Shown one piece after another: positions 4,036-44,280 of a DNA stretch of 64,000 nucleotides (position 1 is its first letter; every line of letters begins with the position of its first letter). The stretch comes from Styela clava (lineage: Eukaryota > Chordata > Ascidiacea > Stolidobranchia > Styelidae): NCBI RefSeq assembly GCF_964204865.1, contig NC_135255.1, forward strand, positions 13,173,135 to 13,237,134. The letters are read 5' to 3'. The notes below the pieces were generated by a model. The model was not told where the DNA came from. It did not search any database and was given only the letters and a program-made list of their open reading frames with translations. Both the position numbers and the translations under genes were made by a program.

Positions 4036-5391
4036 TTTTTTTCTCGGTTTTGAGATTGTCACTGATTCTTTTAACTATAAATACACGGATTTCTGTTCTG
4101 AATACATTTATTATAATCAACACATGAAAGTTACTACTAGGCAATTAAACAAGATAGGTAGTCAGTCACTAACGCGTCGTTAGCCTGGAGGTCTTCTCCG
4201 AAGAGTGAGACGATGTTGTTCAAAATTAAATTTTAAGTTTATCCATAATAAGAAGCAATCTAATTATTTCCAAAACTATCCCACGTTTCGTCGAAATCTA
4301 CTACGTTTTATCTAGTCTGTCTACGTTTCGCCAAAGAGCGATCGTTTTACCGCGGTTTCACACGATGCCATGTGTTATCAAATATTCTGAGCGATCCCAA
4401 GCGGCGGCTATTAGATTTATACGCGTATTAATGAAACAAAAACAAGGGGATGGGATTATTGCGTCTCGTAGTTTAAAGGCGTAATATGATTCAATTTAAG
4501 CACACTACACAAATGGACAGTAAACAAACGAAGATCAGGAAATATAAGATACATGATGGCAGTATTAAAATTTTCTTTGAAAGTGAGATTCGTAACCGTT
4601 TTTGAACCGAGGAAATCACGTTACAGTCTAACTTTATACTAAGTCAACGGAAAGGTCCTTCATCCCTCAACGAAAGTTAAAATAGTTGGGTGATGTAAAA
4701 AATGAACTAAATTGATTTAGTGTATAATGCGTTTAATACTAGCTGCTATTTTCCAGCAATTAGTGCTGAGGTTATGTTTTATGAATAAGTAAAATATGGG
4801 ATCTTATTGTCTTTTGTAAGTTGTACGTGTACCAGATGAGATGCAATCATAGATGTGTGCTGTTGTGAAAGAGGGTGCTCAAGAATTAAATAAAAAAACA
4901 GTGGAATTTTAGATTAAACATTGGCTCTGTTAATATAACAAAAATTTCTGACACATTCTATATAGGCTAGTTTACATAAAAATAAAGCTTTCTGTAATAG
5001 ACTTCGGCCAGTTGTGCGATACGAAACAAAAAAATATCCACGAAAGATTTGAAGTCTGTTGGAGAATCGATTGTGAAAGCACAGAGTAGCATATCACATA
5101 TCAGAGTATGTTGAAATTTCACTTATAGGATTACTTTTACCTATTCAGAAATTCAACAGCAACGTGAAAAGACAGGAACGTGACTCAGTATAACGAAAAT
5201 TTATGATATAAAACTGTTCAAATACACAGAAAACATTACGAATATTCAGAATTTATATTTGGATACTTCAACGATTAAGTGTAATAATAATTTTCATTCA
5301 GTCCACCAAAGCAATCCAATAGCACAGCCGCAGAACATTCACTTGTATAATTCAGTTAAGTGATATTCACTGGTCAAATTTTGCGAAACAG
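4036..5391. other. non-coding stretch
   Basis: No gene, RNA or repeat family recognised. AT-rich with only very short open frames. Confidence 0.4.
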
Positions 5392-5472
5392 TTTTTTGAT
5401 CCACCCATGGAAAAAAGAAGAATATGACATCAATCAAGAATGCTTTGACTACATCGGAATCGGAGTAGAGAA
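5392..5472 (+). CDS. possible orphan exon, unknown product
   Basis: An AG acceptor at 5390-5391 and a consensus donor (GTGAGT from 5473) bracket an open stretch reading FLIHPWKKEEYDINQECFDY followed by IGIGVEK. The residue mix looks protein-like and both ends are in phase 2, but no partner exon was found on either side and no family is recognised. It could be an exon of a decayed gene or chance. Confidence 0.2.
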
Positions 5473-5971
5473 GTGAGTGCATGTTTCATACTTCCATATT
5501 GAATGTATATAAATTCTAGGTAGGGTTATCTTTGACAAGTCAATGATTCAGGTAATTTTTTAAAATCTTTTTACCGCGTGGGTTTGCGATTCTGCCTAGT
5601 GTACAAGTAAGAAAATTGTGTTCTTTGACAATTTACATGTGGGATATTTTCATTTTAAAAACTGGGCTTTGAGGCCCGCAGATTATAAAAAAAAGGTTTT
5701 GATATTTCTGGATCTGCATTTGTACCCGGACAAACAATCTGGCCAAACAGAGAAGTAGCTGGATATTCTTTTGTTATGAAGGAATTCGGGGATCATTGTC
5801 GTTTCTTGTCAACTCGAATATTGTGCGCAATATCATTAGAATTGGGTTTCAAGGAAACTCCATGAACTCTCAATCTGAGTGCAGATGACATCGTATTATG
5901 CTAACTCGAAAATAAATTTAAAAAAATTTTACTACTTTCAATTCATATAATTTCCTAGCAAACTTAGTGAG

Positions 5972-6208
5972 CTATATATGATTCATATGACAACATGGCG
6001 TATTACTTGTTTGTTGAAAACTTTCAACAGCTTTTGCAATTTGCAAAAATCTGTAAATTGAATTTAAGATAGTTTTGATAACTTCTCTCAAATTGAGTAA
6101 CATTGGACGAAATCTTACCATTTCGAGCGCGGTAAAGCATTTTCGGGACCTTGTGTATACGTTTGGGGCAACGTCAGACCTATGAAAGATGTCCAGTGTC
6201 GTCGCCAT
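5972..6208 (-). other. open frame shared by both duplication copies, uncertain coding
   Basis: Minus-strand frame of 78 codons beginning MATTLDIFHRSDVAPNVYTR. The matching frame in the second copy is 8744-8986 (80 codons). The copies differ by a 6-bp indel that keeps the frame (REVIKT against REVGIIKT) and a few substitutions, none making a stop. A GTAAGA donor-like site follows codon ALEM, so a first exon is conceivable, but no in-phase acceptor was found. No family recognised; an old transposon fragment is equally likely. Confidence 0.2.
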
Positions 6209-7029
6209 AAAACTCCGCTGTTACATACGATATTATCTTGGCGTCGTAAAGCTATCAAGCGTGATGCAGCAACAAGACAGTGTCACATTAAATGTCATTG
6301 TAATAATTTTTTAATAAGACGACTGAGTTGAATTCACGAATTGTCGCAGTTTTTACGCACTGTTCCGTTTTTAACTTTAAAAAATATAAGCGACCCGCAA
6401 AAAACTAGCAACCCTAAATTTTGTCCCGCGAGCGAAAGAAAATTTGCCGACAACTGGGCCGTACGTAGCCGAAAGTCGGTCACGACTTCTTCCACATCCG
6501 AGTCCATGAATCCAAAAACAAATGGCTAATTAATTCTGTGGACATGGAGATCGTGGTAGGATGAGGAATCGGGGATGAATTTTACCGAAATATTTTGGTG
6601 CAGGTCATCAGGCTGTAGGAATGAATTAGATGTACGAAAATCATTAATATATGAAAAATTAACTTTGTTTTCATTATTTTAATGTGAAATGGGGTGAATT
6701 TAGGGAGTAAAATGCTATAAGACAAGAGTACACGGCGGTTTTTGAGGAGGTAGAACCCCGAATTCTTTCATTTCCGACCTAATATATGGTAAAAAGGGGG
6801 TTTTCAACCGTGCTACTATTGCTATCAAAACAACGAAATCGCCTTTTTATCAGTAAGCGAGTTAATTTTAGATATATTAAAAAACTCGCTGAAGAACACC
6901 AAGCTCATCCATCTCATTAAAATACACTATAAACTATGAATTGTCTTCTCTTTTGGTCTGTAATATATTCGTTTCTGACTTTACATTTTTTTGTAGTGCA
7001 GGGGGGCGATGAAGTTGTATAAACTACTG

Positions 7030-7073
7030 TAGGGGGGCAATGATCAAAAAAGTTTGGGAACCACTGCTCTAGA
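7030..7073. mobile_element. solitary hAT-type terminus (left duplication copy)
   Basis: A GGGGGGCAATGATC segment followed by GTTTGGGAACCACTG at about 7051-7065 is the typical 3' end of hAT DNA transposons (terminus CAGTGGTTCCCAAAC read inward). CTCTAGAG follows directly as a possible 8-bp target duplication, but no matching left end was found, so only a remnant is called. The same end is present in the other copy, where it reads GTTTGGGAGCCACTG. Confidence 0.6.
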
Positions 7074-8254
7074 GTCCAGAAGTTTGTGCATTAATATGTC
7101 GCACAGCCTGAAAGCTAACCGGTACACACAATCTATGTTCAGTTGTGCGCCATTCTGCTGCACATACTTAATTATTGTGTAGAGCCACCTAATGTTTGAA
7201 TGCATAACAAATTGTGTCGCCAATATCTTATCTGATATCTTTATATTACAATGACCAGATATCGAGTGTAGTAGCCACTTGCATATGCAATATTGCCAAT
7301 GCATATATACCAGTACGGTGAACATTCTCATACAATATCTGAATACTCAGTTAGTTGTTTCTAAATTTACAAAACGCCTGCGAAATAATTGCTGAAAACC
7401 GGGCGCTCTTGGTGCGTTTTTTGCGTCCTAATTAGTAAACTAAAACGATATAAAGTAGTCATATGTATAAAAAGAAACCGACCGCTCGACATTGACGCCC
7501 CTGGCTTTTTGCGAGAGCCATGTGTATACTCTTGAGGGTTTGCCTGAAGTCGATGAAGGTCATTTTTTTATTCAGTCGGGAAGCGCACCCACTTGGAAGG
7601 CATAGTGCAATTATTCAGCGTTTAATGTTTATGATAGCGGTAATCTATCAGTGCTGTTTTAATTTTACGTGACACGAATGTGACTCCCTCAAACATAAAT
7701 TATTTTATTGAAACAATATCTTACTTTTATATCGCCATCTACACAATAGGTGCCACCGAGATTAAATAGGCATAGGCAAGTACGTCAACCTCGCCGAAGT
7801 GATTATACAAAGCTTGGGTAATTTTTTTACTGATGGCGACGTAGGTATTCTTGCCTTGTTCTCATTTTGCAGCTAAAACACACACCAAACGATCACCGAT
7901 TTCATATTCGATGGCCGTATACGGACGTAACTTGTGTATACCCCTGGTTCAGAGTATATACCGAGACTCGTTAAAAGTCGAAAGGATTCAAAATAGATCT
8001 CCGAAATATTTAAATCATTAAAAAAAGTTTATTATATCGCTGAATATGGGTAGTAACTTCATTCCAGAAAAAAGTTGCCGAATCGATACTGGTATATTCG
8101 CATATGCGAAATGTGAATCATTTTCTGTGATATCTTATAAGGCGATTAGAGCACTTGCTTAGAGCTATACAGGTTATCCGGAAGAGTTACTTAAAACACT
8201 TTAGTGAAATTACGCCAGTAATGAAACATATTGTTTTATTTTATTTCGACAATT

Positions 8255-8372
8255 TTCTAACATAATAATGATTAACTTGCATTCTTCATGAGTAGGCTAT
8301 CTAACTTGTCTAACATAAATTTCTAACATAATAATGATAAACTTGCATTCTTCATAAGTAGGCTATCTAGCT
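8255..8372. repeat. 58-bp direct repeat pair inside the left duplication copy
   Basis: The segment starting TTCTAACATAATAATGAT and ending near GTAGGCTATCTAACTTGTC occurs twice in tandem with few changes. The same pair is at about 11138-11260 in the right copy, so it predates the 2.8-kb duplication. Confidence 0.75.
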
Positions 8373-8464
8373 TGTCTATCGCTGAGAACTGTCAAAGAAT
8401 CAAAAATTTGTCGTTGTGAAATGCTGTATTACTTTTTACTTGTAGTCTCTCCGTCTTTGAAAGG

Positions 8465-11348
8465 TTTTGATATTTCTGGATCTGCATTTGTACCCGGACG
8501 AACAATCTGGCCAAACAGAGAAGTAGCTGGATAGATATTCTTTTGTTATGAAGGAATTCGGGGATCATTGTCGTTTCTTGTCAACTCGAATATTGTGCGC
8601 AATATCATTAGAATTGGGTTTCAAGGAAACTCCATGAACTCTCAATCTGAATGCAGATGACATCGTATTATGCTAACTCGAAAATAAATTTAAAAAATTT
8701 TTACTACTTTCAATTCATATAATTTCCTAGCAAACTTAGTGAGCTATATATGATTCATATGACAACATGGCGTATTACTTGTTTGTTGAAAACTTCCAAC
8801 AGCTTTTGCAATTTGCAAAAATCTGTAAATTGAATTTAAGATAGTTTTGATTATTCCAACTTCTCTCAAATTGAGTAACATTGGACGAAATCTTACCATT
8901 TCGAGCGCAGTAAAGCATTTTCGGGACCTTGTGTATACGTTTGGGGCAACGTCAGACCTATGAAAGATGTCCAGTGTCGTCGCCATAAAACTCCGCTGTT
9001 ACATACGATATTATCTTGGCGTCGTAAAGCTATCAAGCGCGATGCAGCAACAAGACAGTGTCACATTAAATGTCATTGTAATAATTTTTTAATAAGACGA
9101 CTGAGTTGAATTCACGAATTGTCGCAGTTTTTACGCACTGTTCCGTTTTTAACTTTAAAAAATATAAGCGACCCGCAAAAAAACTAGCAACCCTAAATTT
9201 TGTCCCGCGAGCGAAATAAAATTTGCCGACAACTGGGCCGTACGTAGCCGAAAGTCGGTCACGACTTCTTCCAAATCCGAGTCCATGAATCCAAAAACAA
9301 ATGGCTGATTAATTCTGTGGACTGGAGATCGTGGTAGGATGAGGAATCGGGGATGAATTTTACCGAAATATTTTGGTGCAGGTCATCAGGCTGTAGGAAT
9401 GAATTAGATGTACGAAAATCATTAATATATGAAAAATTAACTTTGTTTTCATTATTTTAATATGAAATGGGGTGAATATAGGGAGTAAAATGCTATAAGA
9501 CAAGAGTACACGGCGGTTTTTGAGGAGGTAGAACCCCGAATTCTTTCATTTCCGACCTAATATATGGTAAAAAGGGGGTTTTCAACCGTGCTACTATTGC
9601 TATCAAAACAACGAAATCGCCTTTTTATCAGTAAACGAGTTAATTTTAGATATATTAAAAAACTCGCTGAAGAACACCAAGCTCGTCCATCTCATTAAAA
9701 TACACTATATAAACTATGAATTGTCTTCGTTTTTGGTCTGTAATATATTCGTTTCTGACTTTACATTTTTTGTAGTGCAGGGGGGCGATGAAGTTGTATA
9801 AACTACTGTAGGGGGGCAATGATCGAAAAAGTTTGGGAGCCACTGCTCTAGAGTCCAGAAGTTTGTGCATTAATATGTCGCACAGCCTGAAAGCTAACCG
9901 GTACACACAATCTATGTTCAGTTGTGCGCCATCCTGCTGCACATACTTAATTATTGTGTAGAGCCACCTAATGTTTGAATGCATAACAAATTGTGTCGCC
10001 AATATCTTATCTGATATCTTTATATTACAATGACCAGATATCGAGTGAAGTAGCCACTTGCATATGCAATATTGCCAATGCATATATACCAGTACGGTGA
10101 ACATTCGCCAGTGTTGTCCCAGTCTTCCCTTTCCCCGCTAAACTAATGAATAAATCTACAATATTCTCATTTGTACACGATTAAAATAATGATCTTTCTT
10201 ATATTCTTCTCATACAATATCTGAATACTCAGTTAGTTGTTTCTAAATTTACAAAACGCCTGCGAAATAATTGCTGAAAACCGGGCGCTCTTGGTGCGTT
10301 TTTTGCGTCTTAATTAGTAAACTAAAACGATATAAAGTAGTCATACGTATAAAAAGAAACCGACCGCTCGACATTGACGCCCCTGGCTTTTCGCGAGAGC
10401 CATGTGTAAACTCTTGAGGGTTTGCCTGAAGTCGATGAAGGTCATTTTTTTTCATTCAGTCGGGAGGCGCACCCACTTGGAAGGCATAGTGCAATTATTC
10501 AGCGTTTAATGTTTATGATAGCGGCAATCTATCAGTGCTGTTTTAATTTTACGTGACACGAATGTGACTCCCTCAAACATAAATTATTTTATTGAAACAA
10601 TATCTTACTTTTATATCGCGATCTACTCAATAGGTGCCACAGAGATTATATAAGCATAGGCAAGTACGTCAACCTCGCTGAAGTGATTATCCAAAGCTTG
10701 GGTAATTTTTTTACTGATGGCGACGTAGGTATTCTTGCCTTGTTCTCATTTTGCAGCTAAAACACACGCCAAACGATCACCGATTTCATATTCGATGGCC
10801 GTATACGGACGTAACTTGTGTATACCCCTGGTTCAGAGTATATACCGAGACTCGTTAAAAGTCGAAAGGATTCAAAATAGATCTTCGAAATATTTAAATC
10901 ATTAAAAAAAGTTTATTATATCGCTGAATATGGGTAGTAACTTCATTCCAGAAAAAAGTTGCCGAATCGATACTGGTATATTCGCATATGCGAAATGTGA
11001 ATCATTTTCTGTGATATCTTATAAGACGATTAGAGCACTTGCTTAGAGCTATACAGGTTATCCGGAAGAGTTACTTAAAACACTTTAGTGAAATTACGCC
11101 AGTAATGAAACATATTGTTTTATTTTATTTCGACAATTTTCTAACATAATAATGATTAACTTGCATTCTTCATGAGTAGGCTATCTAACTTGTCTAACAT
11201 AAATTTCTAACATAATAATGATAAACTTGCATTCTTCATAAGTAGGCTATCTAGCTTGTCTATCGTTGAGAACTGTCAAAGAATCAAAAATTTGTCGTTG
11301 TGAAATGCTGTATTACTTTTTACTTGTAGTCTCTCCGTCTTTGAAAGG
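8465..11348. repeat. right copy of the 2.8-kb tandem duplication
   Basis: Direct repeat of 5697-8464, 2,884 bp long. It is longer mainly because 103 bp at 10107-10209 are absent from the left copy; a TTC triplet flanks the segment on both sides, which fits a small deletion in the left copy as well as an insertion here. The copy ends at AAAGG (11344-11348), 57 bp beyond the stop codon of the minus-strand C-type lectin gene, so the duplicated block includes DNA just downstream of that gene. Confidence 0.93.
9815..9857. mobile_element. solitary hAT-type terminus (right duplication copy)
   Basis: Second copy of the remnant at 7030-7073, brought by the 2.8-kb duplication. One base of the terminus differs (GGGAGCCACTG instead of GGGAACCACTG). 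Confidence 0.55.
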
Positions 11349-11404
11349 TGCAACACATTATGACTTCAACAATGGTAATTAGATGGCCAAAGGAATAAGA
11401 TATG

Positions 11405-13273
11405 TTAAATTTGACAAAATACGCCATGTGTCACTACATCACCCGAGCCATCGTAATTTCCCATTCCGCCCCCTGGCGTGTTTGGGTCCACGAATACTTT
11501 TATGTCAATATTCACACGCTTAGCAAAATCAGTTCCAAGTTTTGGATATTCTCCAGCTATCCAGTTAGCATATGTTGCAACGTCACCATTGCGATATAGG
11601 ACGTCCCCGGTCTGAAAAAAGAAAACAAAGCATCACTACATAATTTTTTTCTATATCGTTTTACCCTTAAGCAAAACTACAGCTCTGAAAGGAAGATTGA
11701 GGAAAACAAGTCTGTACGCGAAGGTTGGATAGTTATTCAGAATAAAGGGAATGAATTATGTTCTCCAGTCGTCATTTAAAACTACATTCTTTGGGTCAAC
11801 ATATGCGGAGCACAAAGTATACGAAAAGGCGAAGCACCATGCACAATAATCAAGTAGTTTTCACTGAAGTCGTTACTTAAAAGACTCCGTGAGCATTATT
11901 AGATCCTAATTCACCACAAAAAAAATCTTACAAGTGGGTTAAATCTCATTCCAATCCAAACGTAAACATGTTCAGAATTTGACGGCATTTCTGAACGAAT
12001 TTTCACCAACATCTTATTGTAATGTTCTTGATTGTATACATTTGCAAGAAATCCACCCCTTTCTCTACAAATTGTTTTGGCATCAGTAAGCTTTATTAAA
12101 TCAGATTTTGTGTGAAGTTCCAACCAATAACACCCTTCGCCATGAATTACATGACAGTAACCTGACGTATATAAAAATATGAAGCATAAAAATATTGTGT
12201 AATCGTGATGGTGATTTCTGACATTCTATATATTTCTCAAAAAAAGAAAAAAATTTAAATTAACTTTCTCACTATGTGCTTATTGCAAAGTAACAGATGG
12301 CAAAATTGATTGCTTCAACTGTACAGTAAAATCGTGTCAATCACCAGCAAATTTACACATACTGCTAAGTATCATTCAAAAGCTCCGTTAATGATATAAG
12401 TATATATGTTGTGATGGCAACATTTTTATATGTTATTATATTCTGACTCGCCAAAAGGCAACATGTAAACTTGTGACTTCCATCCGACTGCGTTTAACCG
12501 CAATCCGCATCATAATCAACAATTAAGTGTGCAAGTATTTTGCCGCCATATTAACAGTGTATATCGGCAAACTGTTACTAGAAAAAAATGATCACATACT
12601 TTTTCCAAATTTCATTAAAGGCATAACTTCCGCTTTCAATTCCATCATCTCTTCAGCAAATATAGCTGTTATGTTTGCAGCAGTTTTAAGTTGGTTGGCA
12701 TATAATCTTGATTCCACATTAATGATCTCGGTCCGTAATTTCCCAATGGCTGAGTTTAAAACAACGCAACGTAACATAATGCACTAGTAAATGAATGTTG
12801 CGAAACATGATCTTTTGAAGGATAGTGATAACAATTATCAAAATATACAAAGCAAACGCGTTTAAACGCAAATAAAAGAAAGGACCAAGAAGCTGTTTAA
12901 TTATGCGACACAACACGACGTCAAGTTCCGTAAGATTTCAGGCCATTATGAGAATTGAGGGTTCAAATGCCGATCATTCGACCACTGCTTAATAGAAAAA
13001 GCTATGCGCTCGTGGGCCATAATCGAAAAAGAAATGTTTCGTATTGTGCAAAAATTTACCTTTTGTTATCTTTTCGTCTATTATCAGCATCATTTCGTTC
13101 TTGTTCGGTACTGGTAGATGGTAATTTGTTGTAGTATTGAGACCGGCACCACTCTGTAGAGATTCGACACTATCCACTTCCATGCATATTTTCTGTTTTG
13201 CACATGCCGGACTGTTAACAAATAGACATCCAAGAATGTAAAGTGATATAGAATAAAAACTCGTAGTCATCAT
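11405..13273 (-). CDS. secreted C-type lectin-domain protein (complete, four exons)
   Basis: Minus-strand exons 13273-13060, 12749-12600, 12161-11932 and 11611-11405 all have GT-AG ends and matching phases (1, 1, 0) and encode 266 aa. Exon 1 gives a signal peptide (MMTTSFYSISLYILGCLFVN). Exon 2 is a helical stalk, probably coiled coil. Exons 3-4 form the lectin domain from about residue 123: C124 and C132 (GEGCYW) look like the N-terminal cysteine pair of long-form domains, C153 (AKTIC) and C264 (VFCQI) the main disulfide, and VYVWIGM the conserved core. The inner cysteine pair is not seen, and the usual calcium/sugar motif EPN is EYP (219-221), with no WND, so calcium-dependent sugar binding is doubtful. 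Lectin-like domains of this type act in recognition outside the cell (family knowledge). The start may be either of the two adjacent ATGs. The 3' flank is part of the 2.8-kb duplication. Confidence 0.88.
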
Positions 13274-21327: not shown

Positions 21328-24300
21328 ATGAAGACGTCTGTTGTATCGGCGTGTTTTACTGTGCTTCTTGCACTTGTTTCAGCATCGGACTATCAGGTGA
21401 CTACTATGATTTCGTTTCTTTTTATGAATTTCACAATCTATTCTTACTAGATTGGTTTCTGAACTTTGGCATATATTCAGACAGCATTGTGCATGTAATG
21501 CAGAACTGAAGTAATATGTTAATGTACGATGGGAAGTATTCTAACGATGTTGAAACAACGATTCTTCAATTTTTTTAAATTTGATGAATAAACTTATTAG
21601 CTTTATTTGTATATGCACTTTGTCGTGAAAATACGCAACATGTTCGGTCTACGATAAGTCTGATTCTGATTGGTAATGGTTCAGTTGCAGTTGTTAGTTA
21701 GAGTTTGTAATATGAAAGTCATTTTTTTTTTGCAAAATCTTTTAATAACTTAGGTTTAAATCAATTTTCTGTACCAGGTTAAACAGGGTAAATTTATTGG
21801 AGAAAATTTTGATGATTACGAAAATACAGAATACGATTACGAAGGTTCAAATGTAGATTCTGAAAACATAACAGCAAGATTCGAAGAATTATCTGGGAAT
21901 GCCGATGGAGTTGAGGTATTAATCGTTAGATAGATTTTGATCAAAGAAAACGGTTTTTAATGCATAAAATTCTGCAAATATAAAAATTAATAAAAGTGTA
22001 TACTACTTAATATGTATTAGGTAAGGGTCACATTGCACCGCCATTTACTCACACCTTAAAATAGTATTTTAATGTTTCATTTTATCGAGACGTAATATGT
22101 TCGTAAAGTTCCATTCCAATTTTCATCAAAATCGAAAATATGTACACGAGGCAGTATATATAATATAGAGCGCGATGTCAAATCTTACTTTTTCTTTTTT
22201 ATAGATATTTATGAAAGCGCTAGAATTGGCGGTTATGGAAGGCGAGGAAACCGTGAAAATACCGATAGAGATTGATCCAGAAGAACACAATATTTCACTT
22301 CAAGTATATAACATTCATTTTCTTCATTCTCATATTCAAAATACGTTGTTTTGGAATACGTTTTCAAAAATATATTTTATCAAACGTTTCTTCATTCGAT
22401 TTGAAAGTGTTCTGGCGCAAAGCCCATTTATGCATTCGAACAAAAGGAATCTTTCTGGTTTGGAGTATTCTTCCATATTTTCTAGTATCCGAAATGAAGT
22501 TAGGTCTCACAACTAAGAAATCAGTCTGGCAATCGAAGTGGTTGTGATGGTCCTAATGGTGTTTGCTGTTGCAATCGGTTGAGGTGTACAGCACAGTTTT
22601 ACAAAACATTGTATATTACTAACAACTAAAAATTTACAATCAAACTAGTATTCCCATTTATATAATTTTAGGATGCTCTTGACCGATCAGAGCAATTTGT
22701 GACTGAACAATTGGATGAAGCCCAGAATCTAATCTCAAAACTCGGAAGCAAAATTGATGAAATGCAAATGAAGCATAAAGATGAAGGAATCTACACTGAC
22801 GATACAGAATCAGCAGATTCTAATCAAAGGTGGGATTCTAGAATATAAAACGTAATATTATAAGCTTTGTATTATCTTTCTACCTACATGTCCAATAATA
22901 AACCTCAAAATAGGAAACAGCATATGTTAATTTTAGCCGAATTACTTTTATCGATTCATTATATCAATATCTTCGTATTTTATTTTTTAGAAATTCTGAC
23001 GTGGAAATCCTGAATACACAGAAAAATGAAATTTTGGAAATCATCGAAGGTTTGACTGATGCGTTAGAAGATTTAAAAGAATTTCGAGGTAGTTTAGCTG
23101 TTGAGGATCTTTACAGTTACTATTATGATGAAGATCTTACCGAGGAATTTGACGAGGAGAACGATGACAGTTCCTGGAATTCAGAGGATTCTTCTGACTC
23201 AGATTTGGGCAAAAACGGCGTAATCTTGGTTGAAGAAAATAGTACCATGTCATCGACGGAATATGATAATTTGCCTGAGGTCAGTGATGGATTTGATACA
23301 TCGGAAGATGGCGAAGAAAACAACACACTGTCACAAATCGAAGAAGCTGAAATTGAGAAATATACTGAAATTGGTGAAATTGAAGAGTCAGACTCATCAG
23401 CAACGCCCAGCGCAAGCAACATTGTTTTAACGGAAGAGTTGAATAACACTATTGTCTTGTCCGATGGAGTCGGAGATAGTATTTCATTGTCTGAAAGCGT
23501 TGGGTTATCGGTTGATAGCAATGGGAACGCTGATTTAATGGCTGACGACGATGAAACATTGTCGTTGTCTACTTCTCCAGACGCATCAGAAAATAATGAA
23601 TTGAGAGTTGCTGACTTAGATGATCCATGGAACGGCCCAGTCGACGAGGCAGATAGTACAATTTCATCAATCGCCTCTTCGGACACAATGGATTGGATCA
23701 ATTATGAAAACGATGAAAAATTGAATTCATGGGTTTTCTCTACTGAGAACACATTGACAGGTAGTACAATTTCATCAATCGCCTCTTCGGACACAATGGA
23801 TTGGATCAATTATGAAAACGATGAAAAATTAAATTCATGGGTTTTCTCTACTGAGAACACATTGACAGGTAGTACAATTTCATCAATCGCCTCTTCGGAC
23901 ACAATGGATTGGATCAATTATGAAAACGATGAAAAATTGAATTCATGGGTTTTCTCTACTGAGAACACATTGACAACCGAAAACTGGAATGACCATAATG
24001 AATACGAAGATGAAAGAGGTATTAACTATGATGGGAACACCGACATTGACGATTACTCGTCATCAACGATTGCTGCAGGAATAGTTTCACCAATTTTCTT
24101 TATTCTTCTATCAATTTGTGCATGCGCACGTTATAGGCGGGTCAATACGTATCGACATCTTGTTATTCGTGCTACACCGGTACCTCCTCAAAAGAAAATA
24201 AGCATCAACAAACCCAAATCATACCAATCCGTTGTTACCGTGTGTGAAATTGCTCCAAAATGCAATATGGCAAGAGGTTCGCCAACTCCACCTGCCGCAA

Positions 24301-24398
24301 AACTACCATCGTACTTGAATGTCGTTTCTAACAAGATTGAAGCACCTCCGAAATACGTTGAAATAAAAAGTGATGCTAAAAATAACATGAAATTTTAA
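21328..24398 (+). CDS. acidic type I membrane protein with 36-residue repeats and PPKY tail; family unknown
   Basis: Exons 21328-21396, 21778-21915, 22205-22303, 22672-22829 and 22991-24398 join in phase (0, 0, 0, 2) and encode 623 aa; the fourth donor is GTGGGA, the others are ordinary. Exon 1 alone is the signal peptide (MKTSVVSACFTVLLALVSAS). Residues about 103-185 are helical and charged, likely coiled coil. The rest of the outside part is very rich in D, E, S and T and nearly lacks cysteine; YSYYYDEDLTEE could be tyrosine-sulfated. Three tandem 36-residue repeats start near residues 377, 413 and 449. One membrane segment follows (about 515-537, IAAGIVSPIFFILLSICA). The tail of about 85 residues is basic and proline-rich, with PPKY at 607-610, a WW-domain binding motif. 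I recognise no family. A role in adhesion or signalling at the surface is inference from the layout only. AATAAA at 24412-24417 follows the stop. Confidence 0.8.
23653..23976 (+). repeat. 108-bp coding tandem repeat, three copies
   Basis: The segment AGTACAATTTCATCAATCGC recurs at 23655, 23763 and 23871, exactly 108 bp apart. The copies are almost identical (one visible silent A/G change, AAATTA against AAATTG), so the array is recent or kept uniform by gene conversion. It encodes STISSIASSDTMDWINYEND plus 16 further residues each time. Confidence 0.95.
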
Positions 24399-24411
24399 AC
24401 TTTCCAAGCAT

Positions 24412-24417
24412 AATAAA
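24412..24417 (+). terminator. polyadenylation signal AATAAA
   Basis: AATAAA 14 bp after the stop codon of the acidic membrane protein gene, in the expected place for a short 3' UTR. Confidence 0.5.
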
Positions 24418-26801: not shown

Positions 26802-27823
26802 ATATAAACCGGTTTATAGGCGCCAACTCGTAAAACCACTCTTGAAATGAGTACCGACAATTTTACACTGATAGAGTGTATAGAAATAATTTTCCGCGAA
26901 TTGAAAGTCGGGAAAACATTCTTTACGTAGTTGTTTGCATTGTTATTATCTCACTACGTAGTCAATTGCATTGTTTCGTAGCAATACCAGGTTAGCAGTA
27001 GCTGTGTAGAATTGTTCAATAATCAGATAACGAGATTTTATGTGCTAAGTTTCATATAATTTGGTGCAAGAAATTTGCTAGTTTCAATAATAGTCTTAAA
27101 ATCGATAACTAATTACATGTTTACCAAATGCTTGGGACGCAAGAAATCATAAAAAAAAATTGGGGTCGCGCCACAAACTAGTTACGGGCCCCTGCGTCAA
27201 GGAATACGACATTCGAGCAAAAGTTGATGTTCATGCAAGCAAAAGTTCATGTACAAGGAAAGGTTTTTGCGTAGTAGGGGAGAAATTAGAAGCTCAAAAT
27301 AGGCCAAGAAAGGAATGTTTAAATCGGTTGGGAACCAGTGATATACACAATAAACTCCTGAATAAACGTGACAAAAACAAACGAATACAAAAGCATATTC
27401 TATGGTAATGCTATGTAGAATAGTTTCTTGGTGTAAAACTACTTTAGACTTACGATATCCAGTGGGCGGCAAGCAGAAATTGGAAGGAAGCCTACTGCTT
27501 AGAGATTAACGAATACCCAGATTAGTGTGACTTTGAAAGAAGTCGAATTGTGTCATTAAATGGGTTATATCAAACATTTGTACCGGTAGATGACATTTTA
27601 ACTTCTATTGGTAATTTGATTTTCAACGTGCAATTGTGTGAATTATCTTCGTTAATTTCCAGAACCTGATTATGTGTACAAAAGAATAATATTATCATAA
27701 TCGGGTTGGCTTGACTTGGTGTTAAAAGCGCAATTACCCCGAGGGGATGCAATCTGGTTCGCCTCGTTCGACATGTCTCTTTCAAGCGTATCATATTAAT
27801 ATTTGCTGCTATAGTGTGTGAAC
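26802..27823. other. non-coding stretch with possible hAT debris
   Basis: No exon recognised. GGTTGGGAACCAGTG at about 27326-27340 resembles a hAT terminus, and TTGGGGTCGCG at about 27160 resembles hAT subterminal sequence. Ends and target duplication cannot be defined. The right end is the 5' flank of the WSCD-type gene. Confidence 0.4.
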
Positions 27824-30800
27824 ATGTGTTCTAAAGTATTGCTTTATAGAATTGTGCATTTCGTACAAAAGAATTACATTTTACCGATTGTGACAGTAGG
27901 TTTTGCAACAGGTATTTTATTGATGTCATATGATAGTGGGTATTTCAATAATAAAGTTGCAAAACCCCCAGCTAAGTTAAAACTGCGAGAGGAATTATCT
28001 AGCATTGAATTGAAAATTCTACAGCAGACGACAGAAAAGATAAGTTCACTAATCACTACAACTACAAAGCAAACGACAACAACACAAATCCCTTGGTATG
28101 ACCCAACACGGTTACTCAAAGATACGGAAAAACAGTTCGCAGGATGGAAAGCTCCTAAAGGAAAAATAGAGAAATACATCAGGAAAATAAAACTTAGCAG
28201 TACGGTCCCTCCAATCACAACTGTGAACCTGGGACAAGTTTTCACTATTACCGACAGATGGAAAGGTAATAAATTTATTTGTAACAATATATGCACGTAA
28301 TTTTACTCGGTAGTAAACGAGCGTTTAGTTGGTACTTTTTATAAAGCCATAGCCAAAATTATTGTAGATAGCATGCACTACCACTACCACAATGTAAAAA
28401 ACTTAGTAGATGACCTTGTTATGAATGCCATGCGTGAAACATTCGGATCCTCTCAACTAAAGAGTTGCGGGTCTCGGCCATACATTCGTTCAGATCGAAA
28501 AGCAAAATGAAATATAAAGTCTGTATGTCATCCTTATAACAGTATAAACTTACAAATTGTTATGAATGACTGAATACATATTTGAAAATACCAATGAGGA
28601 GAAACGTTTTTAATCCTAAAATGTTTTGTATAATGGTACAAACAAATTTTCTCTTTTCTAGTTCAACATATTGGTTGCTTCAGGAAAGCTAGATTTGCCA
28701 TACTCACAAGTCCAAATGTCACCACAAATTTTCACGGCGACATAGGAGATTGTTTAGAAAGATGTGGAAAATTGTAAGTTGAGTCAGTATAGTAAATTAA
28801 ATGAAGCAATTGAGTTCACTTACTATATATACGTACATAAACATGAACCAAGCTTATAAATCCAAATTGAATCTGCATAATTCTACAGTCATGCCCTGAT
28901 TTCTAATATATTATTATTATAGCTGATTTCTCTTGTAAAATTTATCAAAAATTTTCTTACTAACATTCGAGATAAATTGTCAATCTGACAAAATTGACCA
29001 GGAAGATCACAATTAATACTGGTTGACCGAAAAACGGAACCTTAGGTTTACACCTGAACTTCTGTATGTGTATGATTGTACCCAAAAGTTTCAGAATTCT
29101 ATGACGTTTTGCACAAAAGTTATGTTCTCTATGGAATATGTTCTAAATACCATCATCGGCGTTCGTAGACATGTATCCGTTGCTCAAAATTTCAATTCCA
29201 TTTCCGTCAAACAAATGAGAATGTATATATTCCCATTGGTCAAACACATGAAGTAAAACCATCGACATCTTGCTACTAGATATAAAGATTGGGTGGCCTA
29301 TGACGGAACAGGAAAGAGATGTTCATGTGGAATTTCTCTCTACAAATCAATGCCAATTATGTTAATGACGGATCATAGCATAACGTGTGGTGCTGGATTT
29401 GAAGATGTTTACAGAATTGTTAAGTTCTCACCTAATGGTATGTTGATCTCAAATATGTATTTGTACGTTCTCAACAATTTTGTTACTATGTTGTATAAAC
29501 CACATCGTTATGGTGTTTTCGGATAATAATCGATACAAAAATGATATTGATCTCATACCGAAAAAATGAGCCTATAATTCATATGTTTTCAAATAATCAA
29601 TACGTAAAAAATTGTTGTATATATATCTTAAAAATGAAACAGGATAATTAAATATACTTATTTTTTTTAAGCCTTCATAACCATGGACACCATAAAACAA
29701 AGTGGCATCGGGTGCTTTCCCCGACAAGAAAAAATGAATGAGATATTTGGCTCTTACATGGATTCTGCCCTAACCATTGGGGAATGTCTACTACAGTGTG
29801 AAACTAATGCTTATCCAAGTGCAGCATGGACAAATCCGGGAATATGTCAGTGTGGACAATTCGACGAGAGGTATGTATATTAGACTTGCAATTTGATCAG
29901 TAATCAGTATTTTTATTTTTTTACCATCATCTAAATACACTTTGCACAAACAAAATAAAAAACAAACGTAAAAACGATATTACAGGGTGAACGGGGGCGC
30001 GGAAAACAATACCGGTTATCAAGCAGCGACACATGTGGTTAAGTCTAACAGTTATCAGGGAGAGAATAAAAGTCAAATATTGAAAATAAAAAAAAGTTTA
30101 CAGCAACAACAAGAAAAAAAAACATTCATTACATACAAAAATATGACTCCGGGCACCGTCCAGTTGGGTCACCATGGAAACGTATTTCCAAAATCAGATG
30201 AATTTGAACCATGATGCAATACATCAATAAATATGGACTCTTTTACTGTACAAGGCATGCATTTTAATACCCTTGCCTGATAACTATTCCCAAATTGGTA
30301 ACCAAACATTAGGACGTGCTGCTAATACGCTCCCGGAATAAAAATACGAGTACTACACTGAATTTCCCAGATTTGCCTAACACATAACAGAACCCAACCG
30401 CGTTCTTTATTTAATTTTCTAAAAATAACTCTTTCACATCCTATGTTGATCAAGTACTTTTCCTGGAAACAGGCTCACACTTCGCGAAATGGGACCTTCT
30501 GTAAACGATGCTTTGTGCGACGAAGCAGAATGCCATGGCGGAGCACCGTGTGAATATGTGAGAATTATGCGGACAAATGCAGAAGACAAAAGGTGCGACG
30601 TCAGAAATTTCTTGCCTCCAACAGTCGGACGATTAGTGTCGCTAATGAGTTTCCCTGGATCAGGCAACACCTGGGTGAGATATCTGATCGAAGAGGCAAC
30701 AGGAATATTTACAGGAAGCGTTTATTCGGATGTAGATTTATACCAACATGGTGTGATGACAGATTTGTATTAATTTTATTCATTATTTCATTGGTGATTT

Positions 30801-32332
30801 ATGATTATATACGTGATTAGAGGCTTTGTTCAGCCTAGTCTCGCGTCTTAATTTATACCTAAGCTGGATAACATAGAGCAAGCCAAACTGTTACACTTCA
30901 GAGGTGTTAAAACCATACCCACAAGTGACAGACTGTTTACAGCTTTTTTGAGCAAAAACTGCAACGAAACAGTTTTCATTAATTTTGCCTCGGTAAGCAT
31001 GGTGATCATTCTAGAATCTAGTTGGAATTCTCATATGCGATTATGGCAACTGTATTATTGAAATGATATTTTCATCTTCGAGTAATAATTTGGGAGCCCA
31101 TTTTTAAGCTGGAAAATGAAACAAAATTCAAGTTTAATAATAAGAGAAATACCTATTTGCGACATGTTCACATGCAGGGTTCATCGGAGAAATTTTGCCA
31201 TGGAATTCCAGACGCACATCAGTGATTAAAACACATTATATCGTTCCAAAAGAAGCAACAAAATTTGATGAAGCAATTTTAATTATACGTAGTCCATATG
31301 ATGCTATAATGGCAGAATTCAATCGTTTTCGAGGAGGACATACTGGATACGCGGAAGAAGCTTTGTTTAAAACTCCAGGTTAGATAGATTTTCTTGCGCG
31401 AAAATAAAAAATATTTAAATAATAAAATCCTCGATTTGGACTGCTGTATGTTTGTCGCTTGATTTGTAAAGAATAAATAGTTGAATCATCAGCGTAAACG
31501 ACACACGTTTTGCTATTAGGTTGTTATTTGTTTTTAATTTTCGTTTTCGCTATTCGTTTTTTTACCGTAAATATTTGTGTGATAACGCTCTCAAAATCAA
31601 AAGTTCCGCACCTAGTGTCGGCTCCGCGGTACGTGATCTTGTGGTCAGTCGAAGTCGGAAAGTCCACAGTAACGGTACTGTAATTTTGATACTCATACTA
31701 TGTCGTGTCCATATATATACTTGATCATTGCTCTATTGTTTCAATTATACTAAAACATTGCAATAAATAGAAATATAATTTAGAAAAAATATCTTTGTAT
31801 AGATGTTAGCGAAATATTGCGATATGTCCATAAAAATATTTCAACCCCGCTCCAGTAAAACTTGAAATTAAAAAAATGCAAAGGTTTTTCTTATTGTTTG
31901 ATCTTTGTGAGATTACTGCAGCATCCTTATTAATCACAGCCATATGCTATTCTACAGCTTAATGACTCAATTCCGCATATTTCAGAATGGATTTACTTCA
32001 TATCGTACAAAATGCCAAAATGGTTCAAGTCAATTGAATTGTACGCACAGATGGAAAAAGTTCAAGTGATATATTTTGAAGACATCGTCAAAGATCCTAT
32101 CACTGAAGTTCGCAAGATTGTCAACTTTCTGAACTACCCTATAAACAACATCGAGGAGCGTTTAATTTGTCTTGAATCTAATTTAAGCGGAAATTTCAAG
32201 AGACCGAAAAGGACGTTGAGTTTCGATCCGTATCCTCAAAAGTCGAAAGATATTGTAAATTATTTCATAAAAACTGCTAGAGAAATATTAGCGAAACGAA
32301 ATTTACCAACTTTGCCCTTATATGAAAAATGA
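27824..32332 (+). CDS. WSCD: WSC-domain sulfotransferase, WSCD1/2 family (complete, seven exons)
   Basis: Exons 27824-28265, 28662-28773, 29280-29437, 29672-29870, 30473-30750, 31178-31378 and 31986-32332 have GT-AG ends and phases 1, 2, 1, 2, 1, 1, encoding 578 aa, close to human WSCD1 and WSCD2. Residues 18-36 ([19 protein letters not shown]) form a type II membrane anchor, followed by a threonine-rich stem. WSC domains start near HIGCF (C153) and GIGCF (C252), each rich in cysteine. The sulfotransferase domain shows the 5'-phosphosulfate loop [13 protein letters not shown] (from S363), the 3'-phosphate motif IIRSPYDA (R434, S435), and ends IEEC-free in a helix before the stop. Vertebrate WSCD proteins are Golgi enzymes reported to sulfate sialic acids using PAPS (family knowledge); the substrate here is not shown. 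The GTG two codons upstream is less likely than this ATG as start. Confidence 0.93.
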
Positions 32333-34781: not shown

Positions 34782-37700
34782 CTATAAAATTTTTGGACCC
34801 CATTCTTCAAGAATAGACGGAATAGTACGATTGCATCTTTGACTCCGAATATTTGGTATTTTTTTCGACATGAATAGTTTGAAAATCTGTGATGGTGCAC
34901 CGATGTCTACAGTTATGTTTGTATATAATGGTTCTCGTTTTATTGACAAAACTCCGTACCTGATAAATTGAAAAAAACAATGTTATTTTTTTTACTTCGT
35001 TAAATAAACTTCAAAAGTAATAAAATGACCAAATTTTCCGGATATTTTTTTTTATAGTTATTTAAATTGAAGATACATTCCCCGGTATTTCTTTGTCGTT
35101 TGTGTTCTAATCACAAGACGTATTTTCTGATGATACTCACATTTTTATCTCACAAATCAATTTTTTAAAATAACTTTTTAGAGCTTTTTTATATCATTAG
35201 AAGAAAATATTTTACTAATATTTTACATACATATTAAAAAAAAATTTCCACAGAATGCAATCAATGTTTGAATAATTTTAATTGTTAATTTCCCATACGA
35301 ATGACGCAATTTTTTAAATGCATTGATAAACAATGTTGAAGGAATTTTCTAATGTAAATATTGAACAGATGGTGCTCCCGAAGTATGCGAACCAAGATGG
35401 CGGACATCGGAACGTAACATGGGTAACAGGTTAGGGTTAGACGATAAATTTTTTCCAATTTTCCTTATATTAGTCCTATTATTAGTTCAAAGACTAGCCA
35501 AGAGCTTCCCGTAGTATTTATACCTATAATTATGGCCTAACCCTAACCTAGAACACATATTACATTCCGATGTCCGCCATCTTGGTTCGCATACTTCGGG
35601 AGCCCCGAACAGATACTGAAATTTCTTTAGGTTTATAGTTCCCCCTCAAGTATGAATAACTTACTTACTTTAAACTATTTAGTCCATCTTTACCCATTCG
35701 TGAAAGAGACTTGTAGTACAGAGCAAATCTTCCGTCTTGCTTCTCATTTGATTTTTCTCTCGTATGTTTAATCATGTGGAAAACACATGACTTGTTATAT
35801 AAATCTCTTTGAACCTCATACCCTGAAAAATACTTTCTGTTACAGCAGTGTTCTAGTTTTTAGTATACGGGTAGTGTTTTTTTATCGTATTCAACCAACA
35901 CCAAGCTTTAATGAATTGTAGGACAATTAGTAAAATCACACATAACGCCAGCTACTATAATTGCTATTTTACTTCAACGCCTTTTTTTTATATGGCTGAA
36001 ATTCTAATGTGATGCAAAAAATATGGTCTGGGCTACATTTTTGGCATCTGAACAAATCGTCTTTTTCATACGACGCTTATTCATGTTTTTCGCTCCGAAC
36101 AAGTCCCTGTAAATTAGCCACTGATATCTAACAAGATGTAAAGAGCTACTTATTATTCAGAAGAACCCAATTTTTGGGTTCGGCATCGCCTATCCAATTT
36201 ATTAAAACTTGGGTGAATTGGGAATGATTATTTCTCACGAAATAATCATTGTAATAGCCTTAATAACATAACAAAAGATTATTCACCTTTGCTCCATAAA
36301 CGTACATACAGATCGTTATCTTCTGCGCCCCAACCCCAATATGCATTCGAGCATCCATTTATGTCATTGAGTTGTTTAGATGTTAACATAGAAACTCCTC
36401 CAAATAAATGTACACGCTCTCCCGTTTTCCTGACTTGAAAAAATATTTGTTAATATTAACATTTGAGTTTTAGAACTTAGGGTAGCTTATGATCATCATA
36501 GCATTGACTATCGATTCTTGAAATGATCTTGGAAAAAACACTGCCAATGTGGAGCTGTGTTCATCAGATGTGATGTTGACGTCCGATGTGATGAAGTAAA
36601 CTCAAAAAACTTTTGGCTTGATATTACTTGAATATAACCTAATCTCTTGCTCGAATTCAATACTCATTCAACTTTTTTTTATTGAAATTTGTAACAAAAC
36701 TTTCTTCTGCTCACACCTATGTTCCAGGATAATTTATAATAGAGAATGAGATTCATCCGAGCAAAAATAACGCTTTATTGAATATTCGAAAATTGTTCAG
36801 CGGGAAAAGCCGTTTGGAAGATAAACTTGATTGGTAGTGCTTGTTTGGGAATATTCTTGACAACAATTTACTGAAAAAAAAGGTGAAAAAAAAAGATTAT
36901 GACATAAAATATTTCTGTGCATGAGAAGACAGAAAAGAGCCGATTAATTAGAAATAGTGAACTAGTTTTTAACTTTAAACTTTCTTTCAAAAGTTGAGAA
37001 TACCATTGAAATGGAATTTAAAAAACTTATGATTCGGCAATGATATTGTGCCGAAAAAAAATCGCAAAACTTACATGGTTCAGGGGCACATATGGAGCCA
37101 TATGATACCGGCTTGAAATTGAACTTGTCAATGTAAATAGAAATCGATCGAGGATTATCTTCTTCCGGACACCAATAAAGACATCGATCGTCCATAAGGA
37201 GTAAATCAACGTCGTGAAAAACATAGCAGTCATACTTTCTTTCTGAAATTGACAAAACCAATTTCTCAAACATATCACTTCACGTCCAACATATTTATCA
37301 TATGGGGCGATATCGATCGAGTTCAACCAATACGGTATAAACAAACAGATAGAAATAATCATATAATGTGATAATTGCAATAACTGGGTATCAAACGTTT
37401 TTATTTGTCTAGAATTGTATACCAATATTATTACCTTTACTCGCTTCTGAAAATCCAATATTCATAAGTTTGGCACGATTGAATAAGTTTTCTCCACTTT
37501 GCCATATTGTGTAAACTGTGTAGTCCAGTTGTTGGCGTTGCCATATAAGATGCATATGATTCAGCAAACTTCTGAGTTGCGTTTCCCTTCCACGCAAAGG
37601 TATTATAATTGCCACCTTATATTGCGCACGACAGTCTAATGGAGTGTATCGTCCTCCTGCTTCAAGTCGTAAATTATTTCTATATATTTCGTCCAAACTA

Positions 37701-38068
37701 GGTGGATTTATGTCCGATGCGTTATTGTAATTTAATCGTCCCAACAAGTTGGGTGGACTTCGAGAACAAGTGTAACCAGTCACATTTGTTGTAACCTCCA
37801 AACCCTCATTTGTGGAGGATATTGTTTCATTCGTACTTGAAACGGAAGTTATGTTTCGAGTGAAATAATTTGAACTATAGTTTGTGAAAAAATTAATCCT
37901 TATACTTCCATTCGTTTTATATCCTTCAATGTACGATTTTACTGCCTGAGAGTTTGTAAAAAAGGTCCCGGATAGCATTAATAAGAGTGCTGCCAAGACA
38001 ATTGCTGCGAATAGTAATTCCCGTTTTGTTAAGAGAAAATTTTCATTTTTCGTTTCTACTGGCTGCAT
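34782..38068 (-). CDS. B4GALT: beta-1,4-galactosyltransferase family, paralogue with altered catalytic motif
   Basis: Exons 38068-37435, 37242-37075, 36433-36287, 35822-35669 and 34959-34782 (phases 1, 1, 1, 2) encode 426 aa. A type II anchor lies at about residues 19-38 ([20 protein letters not shown]), then a stem with several NxS/T sites. The GT7 fold is clear: [15 protein letters not shown], metal-binding DVD (222-224) in [27 protein letters not shown] (metal site), and [12 protein letters not shown] near the end. Family enzymes move galactose from UDP-galactose to N-acetylglucosamine in the Golgi (family knowledge). The catalytic motif WGWGGEDDD reads WGWGAEDND here (A304, N307); E305 and the presumed catalytic base D306 are kept. 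By alignment N307 replaces the residue equal to bovine D319, which touches the acceptor, so acceptor use may differ. Tandem paralogue of 40197-42972. Intron 4 carries a 236-bp inverted-repeat element. Confidence 0.9.
35371..35606. mobile_element. 236-bp inverted-repeat MITE in a galactosyltransferase intron
   Basis: Perfect 8-bp target duplication GAACAGAT at 35363-35370 and 35607-35614. Arms of about 47 bp pair almost perfectly (GGTGCTCCCGAAGTATGCGA on the left; GGGGCTCCCGAAGTATGCGA as complement of the right end), and the pairing continues imperfectly into AGGTTAGGGTTAG/CTAACCCTAACCT. Each arm contains CAAGATGGCGGAC, close to a YY1 site. No coding capacity. It lies between exons 4 and 5 of the gene at 34782-38068. 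Confidence 0.9.
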
Positions 38069-38846
38069 ACTGAGAGAAATAAATTTTATAATGAGATTGA
38101 TAAAGACTCTGCACTCTGCACTTTCATTCGAATAAACCTCCTATAATTTAATTTCTTCGACTTATTCTGGGCTTTATCATATTTTATAAAAATGCTTTGC
38201 TCATGTAAAAGATATAAATTTAGAAAAAATCCACCAGAGTCGTTCGCTTAAATTGCTGTAGCCCATATTTGTTGATGTTTCAATCAATAAAAAAAAATTT
38301 CCCAATGCGGAACGATTGCTTAAAAGCGATAGCTCTCAAATTATGTCAGTTCGTTTCTATATCCATATTCACAATGCTGATTATTACAGAACAGTTTTGC
38401 TTTACCGGTAAATTCTGCACAGTTATCTAATTATGTTATTAAATTCAATGTTTTTATCCCAATCAATACGCTGATTTCAAACCGTTCACACAACATTCAA
38501 CTTTTAGCTTTCTTTGCTGGATTACGATACTCGAACAACTTCTATTCGATCGTTCGGATCTATCTCATGCTGATTTAATGGATTGCCCGGGGCAAGCAGT
38601 ATGTTGTAAATCGCAGATACATTGCTCGACACTTGATGTCAGAACTCCGCGACCGTTCAATATTGTTTACTTATTTGTTATCAGAGTGGGTAATTGGATG
38701 TGGTAATTTAATATCAATTAATTATTTGAAAAATAGCTAAATCCAAATGCAATATCATATCTTTATTAAAGCCATTCTTATTTTGCCCGTTCCTGGATTT
38801 TTTCGTATGGTGGTCGTTAGTCCTATTGATCTCTACGACACTGCCT
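38069..38846. other. 5' flank of the left galactosyltransferase gene
   Basis: No exon seen. A segment at about 38570-38597 (GCTGATTTAATGGATTGCCC) resembles GCTGATTGATTGCCCGAGGC at about 43624 upstream of the paralogue, which suggests that the flank was duplicated together with the gene. Confidence 0.45.
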
Positions 38847-39684
38847 GTGGGTTATCACGTTTTTGCAACAGAAATACTGAAACTCTTGACATGCATTTCG
38901 CTTATCGTAAAATTTGATAATGTTTCCAAAATTGATTGCCAATGGTCGTGATGTAAACTTTCAAATAAATAATATAACCCCTCGGTATTGTTAAAATATT
39001 TACCAAAGTTGCCAAACCATTCCTGAAATGGGCTGCGGAGTTGAAGTTCGGCGTATTTTTCTCGAGTCTCGGGGTCAATGTTTCAATTTTTTTTTAAATT
39101 CTTCTTGTAAAAAACGGTTTATTTCACGGCGTGACTTCTAAATTTCCGAAAAATCTGAATCGAAATTTCCAATTCATAAAAAAAGATTTTACCTAATCCG
39201 GATTGGAAAACATGAAGGAAATGATTTTTTTAATTGCATTGAACTTGATGAAAAAATAGATTTTGGTGGGTTATCACGTTTTTGCAACAGAAATACTGAA
39301 ACTCTTGACATGCATTTCGCTTATCGTAAAATTTGATAATGTTTCCAAAATTGATTGCCAATGGTCGTGATGTAAACTTTCAAATAAATAATATAACCCC
39401 TCGGTATTGTTAAAATATTTACCAAAGTTGCCAAACCATTCCTGAAATGGGCTGCGGAGTTGAAGTTCGGCGTATTTTTCTCGAGTCTCGGGGTCAATGT
39501 TTCAATTTTTTTTTAAATTCTTCTTGTAAAAAACGGTTTATTTCACGGCGTGACTTCTAAATTTCCGAAAAATCTGAATCGAAATTTCCAATTCATAAAA
39601 AAAGATTTTACCTAATCCGGATTGGAAAACATGAAGGAAATGATTTTTTTAATTGCATTGAACTTGATGAAAAAATAGATTTTT
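38847..39684. repeat. tandem pair of identical 419-bp units
   Basis: Unit 38847-39265 is followed directly by 39266-39684 at an offset of 419 bp. Line-by-line comparison showed no difference. The unit has no coding frame and lies between the two galactosyltransferase genes. Identity this high means a very recent duplication or an assembly artefact. Confidence 0.93.
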
Positions 39685-42972: not shown

Positions 42973-44280
42973 TCTGAATAAAAATAATTTTGTAATAATA
43001 AGATTAAATTAAGTGCAACAAATACACTTGGATTTCACTCATGTCGATTTTTTATTTCTTCATTGTATGCACAGATAATTACTTGCATGAGTCGTAACTC
43101 ATGGAAGAGGAAAGTGAGTATTCAGTCAGGTATCACAGCGCAAATAGCGAACAAGTATCAGTAAGTATGACACGTTTTTCTTACATGACTAATAATAGCA
43201 TTTCATTCAACTTGGAGTCACAAATAATTTCGAGTAGAACTCAGCATTTTAAATTTACTTAAATATCAAGTATTAAAATCTAGAATCATTAGCGATGTTG
43301 CCTCCCGTTCATTGTGATATGTTGCCTTACAATCGCAATGCTTGCTAAAACAGCACGGAGAATTATTATGTAGTCTCGCTAAATCCTGTACTTTTACCAA
43401 AACATTTCATGTAGCATACTATACAATTCTGATTATATTTCCTCATTTGTCCATTCGATACTGTCTGATGAGAAAAAACAACAAAAGAACCAGAAACGTC
43501 TCGTATAGTTCTGCCTTCACTACCTCACGAATATTTCTGTATCTTATCATTTACGATGCACCATTTCTCCGATATTCAACTCTCAGTGTTTCTCAACGAA
43601 CTGCTCGTTCTATTCTGCCTTGCGCTGATTGATTGCCCGAGGCAACATCTTGCTAATCATTACTCGGGACTTCAACAAATGCATTTTCCGTCGATTGATG
43701 CCACAACCAGCTAAAACACTATTTATCATCACCAACCAGATGACACACGCAGTCGTAAAGCATCCCTCACATTTTTATGACTAATAGCCAATATTATTCC
43801 GCCTGAACATATTTTTATTTATATGTTTTATACGGTTGGTTCGTTAGATGTGGCACTTACATTCGAAACTAACTGAGTTACAGAGCAATACCACATAACT
43901 AATCTTCAATCTATTCTATCATGAAACATATCTATCTAAATCGATACAGATATAGTCAATCTAACTCGTTGTGTCCGTTTCTCGTATTATTGCATATGAA
44001 TGTCTTTTAATTAAAGACTTTTTCCCAGATGTATCGTATCTTGGACAAACACGATACCATATTTTCCCTTATTTGAACACGAAACAAGCGCTTCGTCAAG
44101 ACTGGTTGAAGATAAATTAATTTCAGGCATGTTGTTGAGGATCGACCACTCGAAACGACCGGCCCATTGCGATCGACTTTTGGCTGTCCCTGATTTAGAG
44201 AAAACAAAACCTACAAGTATTGTAAGAGATTTATATCTGTACCTAAATTAGAACCAAGCTGTGGCGCTCGAGGGGGGGGA
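42973..44280. other. 5' flank of the canonical galactosyltransferase gene
   Basis: No exon seen. Shares short similarity near 43624 with the flank of the paralogue. The open frame at 43342-43632 has no family resemblance. Confidence 0.4.

Follow-up and report, generated by a model that had tools for sequence, protein, structure and literature searches.

In SUSD4 the intracellular tail contains a PPxY and an LPxY motif, one of each, and NEDD4 ligases are reported to be bound through both (PMC7972451). Mutation of the PPxY motif weakened NEDD4 binding and mutation of the LPxY motif abolished it, while the motif mutations had no significant effect on the level of SUSD4 (PMC7972451). ENTREP/FAM189A2 is described as crossing the membrane once and having two PPxY motifs; it binds the NEDD4-family ligase ITCH and is located at the plasma membrane and in endosomes (PMC8811627). 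We analysed a window of 64,000 nucleotides of DNA from Styela clava, which contains at 21328-24398 of the forward strand a believable animal gene that probably encodes a membrane protein without recognised family. The protein of 623 aa has a single membrane span and PPxY/LPxY motifs in its tail, the combination taken here as the mark of NEDD4-family-binding single-span adaptors such as SUSD4 and ENTREP. As our main reading, with a probability of roughly 45%, we propose an orphan protein that spans the membrane once, has a polyanionic stalk and would recruit clathrin adaptors and a NEDD4-type ligase through its tail.

The gene consists of five exons, which spliced in frame give 623 aa without a stop, and all four introns have GT donors and AG acceptors. 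Coordinates and exon layout proposed in the first-pass annotation agree with these data; the splicing of the chain is a model that we infer from the sequence. Exon 1 (21328-21396) contains the start codon, the signal peptide and four further residues, shows a hydropathy of 1.74 at residues 1-19 and is followed by a GT donor. Exon 2 (21778-21915) codes for an acidic N-terminal segment with clustered tyrosines and is followed by exon 3 (22205-22303) and exon 4 (22672-22829), the latter carrying a first heptad helix at about residues 103-139. The second heptad helix, the acidic stalk, the repeats, the membrane span, the tail and the stop codon all reside in exon 5 (22991-24398). An AATAAA polyadenylation signal is located at 24412-24417 (+), 14 bases past the stop codon.

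Exon 5 lies within an ORF of 494 codons, measured from stop to stop. In 60 order-2 Markov sequences of 64 kb, read in six frames each, the longest stop-free run was only 232, thus the ORF far exceeds chance. A codon score trained on 1041 codons from four other ORFs of the window placed the model frame at the top of six in four of the five exons. The preference was clear in exons 2 (0.214), 4 and 5 and marginal in exon 3 (0.064 vs 0.057 for the next frame), and in exon 1 one antisense frame was slightly ahead of the model frame (-0.015 vs -0.019). The weak scores of exons 1 and 3 would fit a gene model that is partly wrong, with other exons or another start, or a young gene whose function is not settled. 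For a young gene speaks also that no relatives were found in the collections searched, i.e. viral and prokaryote contigs and the host genome, the one animal genome in scope. Yet five exons that join in frame, an ORF of this length, and a signal peptide and membrane span at their right places argue against an erroneous model, and we regard this explanation as most improbable.

Hydropathy exceeded 1.4 in just two segments of the 623-aa protein, residues 1-24 and 510-537. The former comprises the predicted signal peptide (about residues 1-19, within exon 1; cleavage site placed by eye), the latter the predicted membrane-spanning segment at about residues 514-536 (24066-24134, +), where hydropathy reached its maximum of 2.46 and a helix was modelled with low confidence. 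A signal peptide on an exon of its own and one membrane segment had both been claimed before; the boundaries of exon 1 and a hydropathy profile with a single peak beyond the signal peptide are in accord with this, and the type I layout given there is supported. Likewise, the outer part was rightly called very acidic and poor in Cys: residues 21-513 (493 aa) contain 129 D/E, 21 K/R, 100 S/T and 9 Trp, but no Cys, with a net charge of -108. The protein has five N-x-S/T sites, none of them within the repeats.

A coiled coil had also been suspected. Heptad scores surpassed those of shuffles of the same segment at residues 99-139 (P 0.0036) and at residues 156-191 (22992-23099, +; P 0.0012), using a simple home-made score and segments picked after looking. 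In AlphaFold models, which were built without alignment, exon 4 formed a helix at residues 2-37 of 52 with a block-mean pLDDT of 94-98 over the first 30 residues. The second heptad helix was likewise helical; here the block-mean pLDDT was 67-83 for the 30 residues that open exon 5. On the other hand, residues 52-79, outside both helices, had a heptad score of 6.0, which lies between those of the helices (6.5 and 5.8). The score is thus not specific. The acidic stalk that follows (residues 192-375; 23100-23651, +) is probably disordered, its pLDDT being mostly below 50. Over the whole of exon 5 pLDDT was below 50 in 399 of 468 residues and the mean of the long model was 38.8, although a low pLDDT from a model without alignment is a weak sign of disorder. 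When the whole protein was scanned in 16 windows, 12 had a negative FoldIndex-type score, whereas the window at residue 289 had a positive one. Taken together the anatomy of the protein is well supported on paper, and its function is predicted from it.

A type I layout would place the tail (residues 539-623; 24141-24395, +) in the cytoplasm. It is basic and proline-rich with 11 Pro, 14 K/R and 4 D/E in 85 aa. The PPKY motif already pointed out in the first-pass annotation is present at residues 607-610 (24345-24356, +), and an LPSY motif that had been missed is located at residues 593-596 (24303-24314, +). Four Y-x-x-hydrophobic motifs start at residues 542, 566, 596 and 610 (24150-24365, +), the last two overlapping the LPxY and PPxY motifs. 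Such YxxPhi motifs bind clathrin adaptors; short motifs in general bind in context only. With tests that were chosen post hoc, the tail had two [LP]PxY motifs compared to a shuffle mean of 0.08 (P 0.0016) and four YxxPhi motifs compared to 0.97 (P 0.0024). PPxY alone had a P of 0.06, which is within chance for so proline-rich a tail. The proposal that the tail binds WW domains is plausible and, because there is an LPSY in addition to the PPKY, better founded than had been claimed.

The main reading may be spelled out as follows. Self-association of the protein is probably brought about by the pair of heptad helices close to the N-terminus, and the remainder of the outer part would form an extended polyanionic stalk which is lengthened by the 36-residue repeat. 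In view of the LPxY, PPxY and tyrosine motifs in a basic tail, we propose that the LPxY and PPxY motifs probably bind a NEDD4-family ubiquitin ligase and that the tyrosine-based sorting motifs probably lead to uptake through clathrin adaptors. Toward the ligase the protein could be a substrate or cargo, or it could be an adaptor like SUSD4 that brings in partner proteins. We infer surface location, self-association, binding of ligase and adaptors and, indeed, all function.

The net charge of -108 and the four YxxPhi motifs would also be compatible with a lumenal or granule-matrix protein, in which the part that is acidic and free of Cys would hold cations or basic cargo within a secretory or lysosome-related organelle; the tyrosine motifs would sort it and the repeats lengthen the matrix part. 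That no recognition domain exceeded its cut-off agrees with such a role. Yet each repeat unit contributes a net charge of just -5, and it contains four aromatic residues. In addition, S-x-E sites (4 vs 9.1) and CK2-type sites (13 vs 26.3) were depleted relative to shuffles, unlike in a secreted acidic phosphoprotein. We consider this explanation possible, if doubtful. SIBLING-type proteins are secreted acidic phosphoproteins. An assignment to this type was rejected, since S-x-E kinase sites were not enriched; counts against shuffles of the protein likewise gave no enrichment of Fam20C/CK2 sites. PMEL and GPNMB are type I proteins, and PMEL has an acidic repeat region; the 623-aa protein differs from both in having no Pfam domain over its cut-off and no Cys in the outer part.

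PSGL-1 and membrane mucins are stalk proteins of type I whose tandem repeats can vary in number. A stalk of this kind, glycosylated and tyrosine-sulphated, with its reach set by the length of the repeats, might be read from the 100 S/T in 493 aa, from the five N-x-S/T sites, even though none is in the repeats, and from acidic tyrosines at residues 37, 42, 198 and 199. These four acidic tyrosine sites, however, do not go beyond composition (shuffle mean 3.0, P 0.35), and a sulphotyrosine stalk like that of PSGL-1 was rejected on this basis. The repeat differs from those of PSGL-1 and the membrane mucins in that it has neither Pro nor an N-glycosylation site. We thus hold a mucin- or PSGL-1-like stalk to be unlikely.

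The first-pass annotation had named no family with this layout, and nothing convincing emerged from Pfam, NCBIfam or the PDB sequences. In Pfam none of the five matches listed up to E 10 was over its cut-off, which bears out the absence of a known family as far as these libraries go. CssAB (CS6 fimbrial subunits) reached 22.4 bits with a cut-off of 23.6 (E 1.7e-4), the best stretch being the repeats, and was no longer listed when Pfam was rerun with a single repeat unit; we therefore consider it an artefact of a weak motif summed across the repeats. Lectin_C was rejected with 9.4 bits, or 13.9 bits with one repeat unit, at a cut-off of 22.6 and an outer part without Cys. DUF848, Rv2175c_C and PAC4 in Pfam and two SigK matches in NCBIfam were rejected as well, all being below their cut-offs. 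Among the PDB sequences 15 had E values of no more than 10; most of them were antibody light chains, the best E of all was 0.039, and we took these matches as chance. In the viral and prokaryote contig collections 1 and 25 stretches, respectively, fitted a peptide pattern, and none was a relative, which is expected for an animal gene and says little. When DNA from 23600 to 24400 was compared with the host genome (376,610,584 bases in 379 contigs) there was one match. A search of the same genome with the protein, with 16 of 16 candidates scored, returned its own five exons and two places with E 0.6 and 6.5, which were dismissed as chance. Apparently the gene is single-copy and has no close relatives in its own genome. 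The parts of the literature that were covered contained nothing specific on proteins of such a layout.

The three in-frame 108-bp repeats at 23652-23975 (+) begin at 23652, 23760 and 23868 and encode 36 residues each (residues 376-483), the unit being devoid of Pro. Their near identity was confirmed: the copies differ at two sites in total, of which one is synonymous and the other, in the first codon, exchanges Asp and Gly. Older decayed units were not detected in three test stretches, where the best ungapped scores of 16, 18 and 16 were below the shuffle medians of 19, 20 and 18. As background we sampled 18 stretches of 10 kb, i.e. 180 kb of the 376.6-Mb host genome, for tandem arrays with a period of at least 30 and a match of at least 95%. 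There were 8 such rows, equal to 2.8 per 64 kb; three of them overlap in one sampled stretch (L014), leaving maybe 6 independent events or 2.1 per 64 kb. By the same rule the window has 3 arrays including that at 23652-23975, and two 66-bp arrays with 94% match narrowly miss it. The window also contains a tandem duplication of 2.8 kb with about 98% identity at 5692-11349. With arrays at this frequency and a duplication of this size, fresh duplication is background here, and the three 108-bp repeats have the look of an ordinary duplication of local DNA.

From the near-identical repeats, diversifying or length selection had been suggested. The repeats support neither, because the units are nearly invariant, only one residue apart, and because equally fresh arrays are common in the sampled stretches of the genome. 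The same data bear on the idea of a surface recognition or gamete/allorecognition protein in which variation of the repeat number is selected. A type I layout combined with a fresh repeat array is what such a protein might show, but similar arrays are background in the sampled stretches, the repeat units are one residue apart, and a second copy was not found in the host genome. Furthermore, no recognition domain attained its Pfam cut-off, Lectin_C included, and Cys is absent from the outer part. Thus the surface-recognition role put forward earlier is unsupported, and we judge it quite improbable. In a bolder version of our main reading the orphan protein would be a NEDD4 adaptor that resembles a receptor and is specific to tunicates. 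Its polyanionic, coiled-coil stalk would catch partner membrane proteins or basic ligands, its LPxY/PPxY tail would direct them into ubiquitin-driven uptake, and stalk length would vary between individuals via the 108-bp repeat. This we regard as a long shot. The 108-bp array offers a cheap marker for neutral versus selected coding minisatellites in such genomes.

The start codon of the 623-aa gene is preceded by an acceptor-like cag that ends 8 bases upstream of the ATG. Acceptor-like sites ending 1 to 9 bases before the ATG were seen in 4 of 4 genes of the window with a recognisable start codon (21319 and 27814 on the plus strand, 38070 and 42974 on the minus strand) as compared to 217 of 2507 ATGs overall; the four genes were picked by eye, and the lectin-like and Ras-family genes, whose starts could not be placed, were omitted. 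This suggests either spliced-leader trans-splicing or that the 5' leader contains introns. An assumed spliced-leader pattern of Ciona had no matches, so that, if the pattern is right, the species would not be close to Ciona. A search for COX1 gave no match either. Tunicates are reported to use spliced-leader trans-splicing (PMC2760879).

Several other features were observed in the window and the host genome. To our knowledge, GH6 is confined to tunicates among animals. A GH6 domain was present on a 23.8-Mb contig of the host genome (35.4 and 42.4 bits, cut-off 27), and two neighbouring ORFs of that locus had no cellulose-synthase match. In tunicates, both cellulose synthase and GH6-1 are described as bearing GH6, and the same report cites an analysis that detected cellulose synthase in no other animal (PMC7464555). 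The GH6 domain is in keeping with a tunicate host. The CpG observed/expected ratio of the window (1-64000) was 1.10, with 0.92-1.16 in 8-kb blocks, i.e. there was no depletion. Two tandem beta-4-galactosyltransferase-type genes (Glyco_transf_7N/7C) occupy 37409-38140 and 42271-43008 on the minus strand (parts also at 41008-42036), and their first coding exons share 81% DNA identity across 673 bases. One or more possible genes at 27815-32332 (+) contain a sulfotransferase domain (26.5 bits, cut-off 22) and a WSC-like segment below cut-off (25.4 bits vs 27.8). At 47908-49824 (-) there is a Ras-family GTPase that is extended at its C-terminus by about 400 residues, its best solved matches being RERG and Rit1, and at 11911-12225 (-) a C-type-lectin-like exon (22.5 bits vs a cut-off of 22.6). 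A 419-bp tandem duplication with 100% identity at 38847-39683, which contains two copies of a minus-strand ORF of 75 aa, is either very recent or an assembly artefact. In the sampled stretch L014 positions 4568-10000 form a satellite-like array of a 194-bp unit with 28 copies and 98% match.

As it stands, the locus is one orphan gene with a predicted function. If real, it would add an uncharacterised single-span membrane protein to the probable sister group of vertebrates and would be a case in which the LPxY and PPxY pair that docks the ligase is combined with an outer part unrelated to those known. Present evidence does not make it a new kind of system; it is by layout and motifs alone that we liken the protein to SUSD4 and ENTREP. 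SUSD4 is named for its sushi domains, whereas no sushi domain was among the five Pfam matches listed for the 623-aa protein and the outer part is free of Cys. The motifs of ENTREP are PPSY and PPPY, 42 residues apart, compared to LPSY and PPKY with 10 residues between them in the Styela protein. With SUSD4 the 623-aa protein shares both the predicted transmembrane nature and the same pair of motif types, PPxY and LPxY, in the tail.
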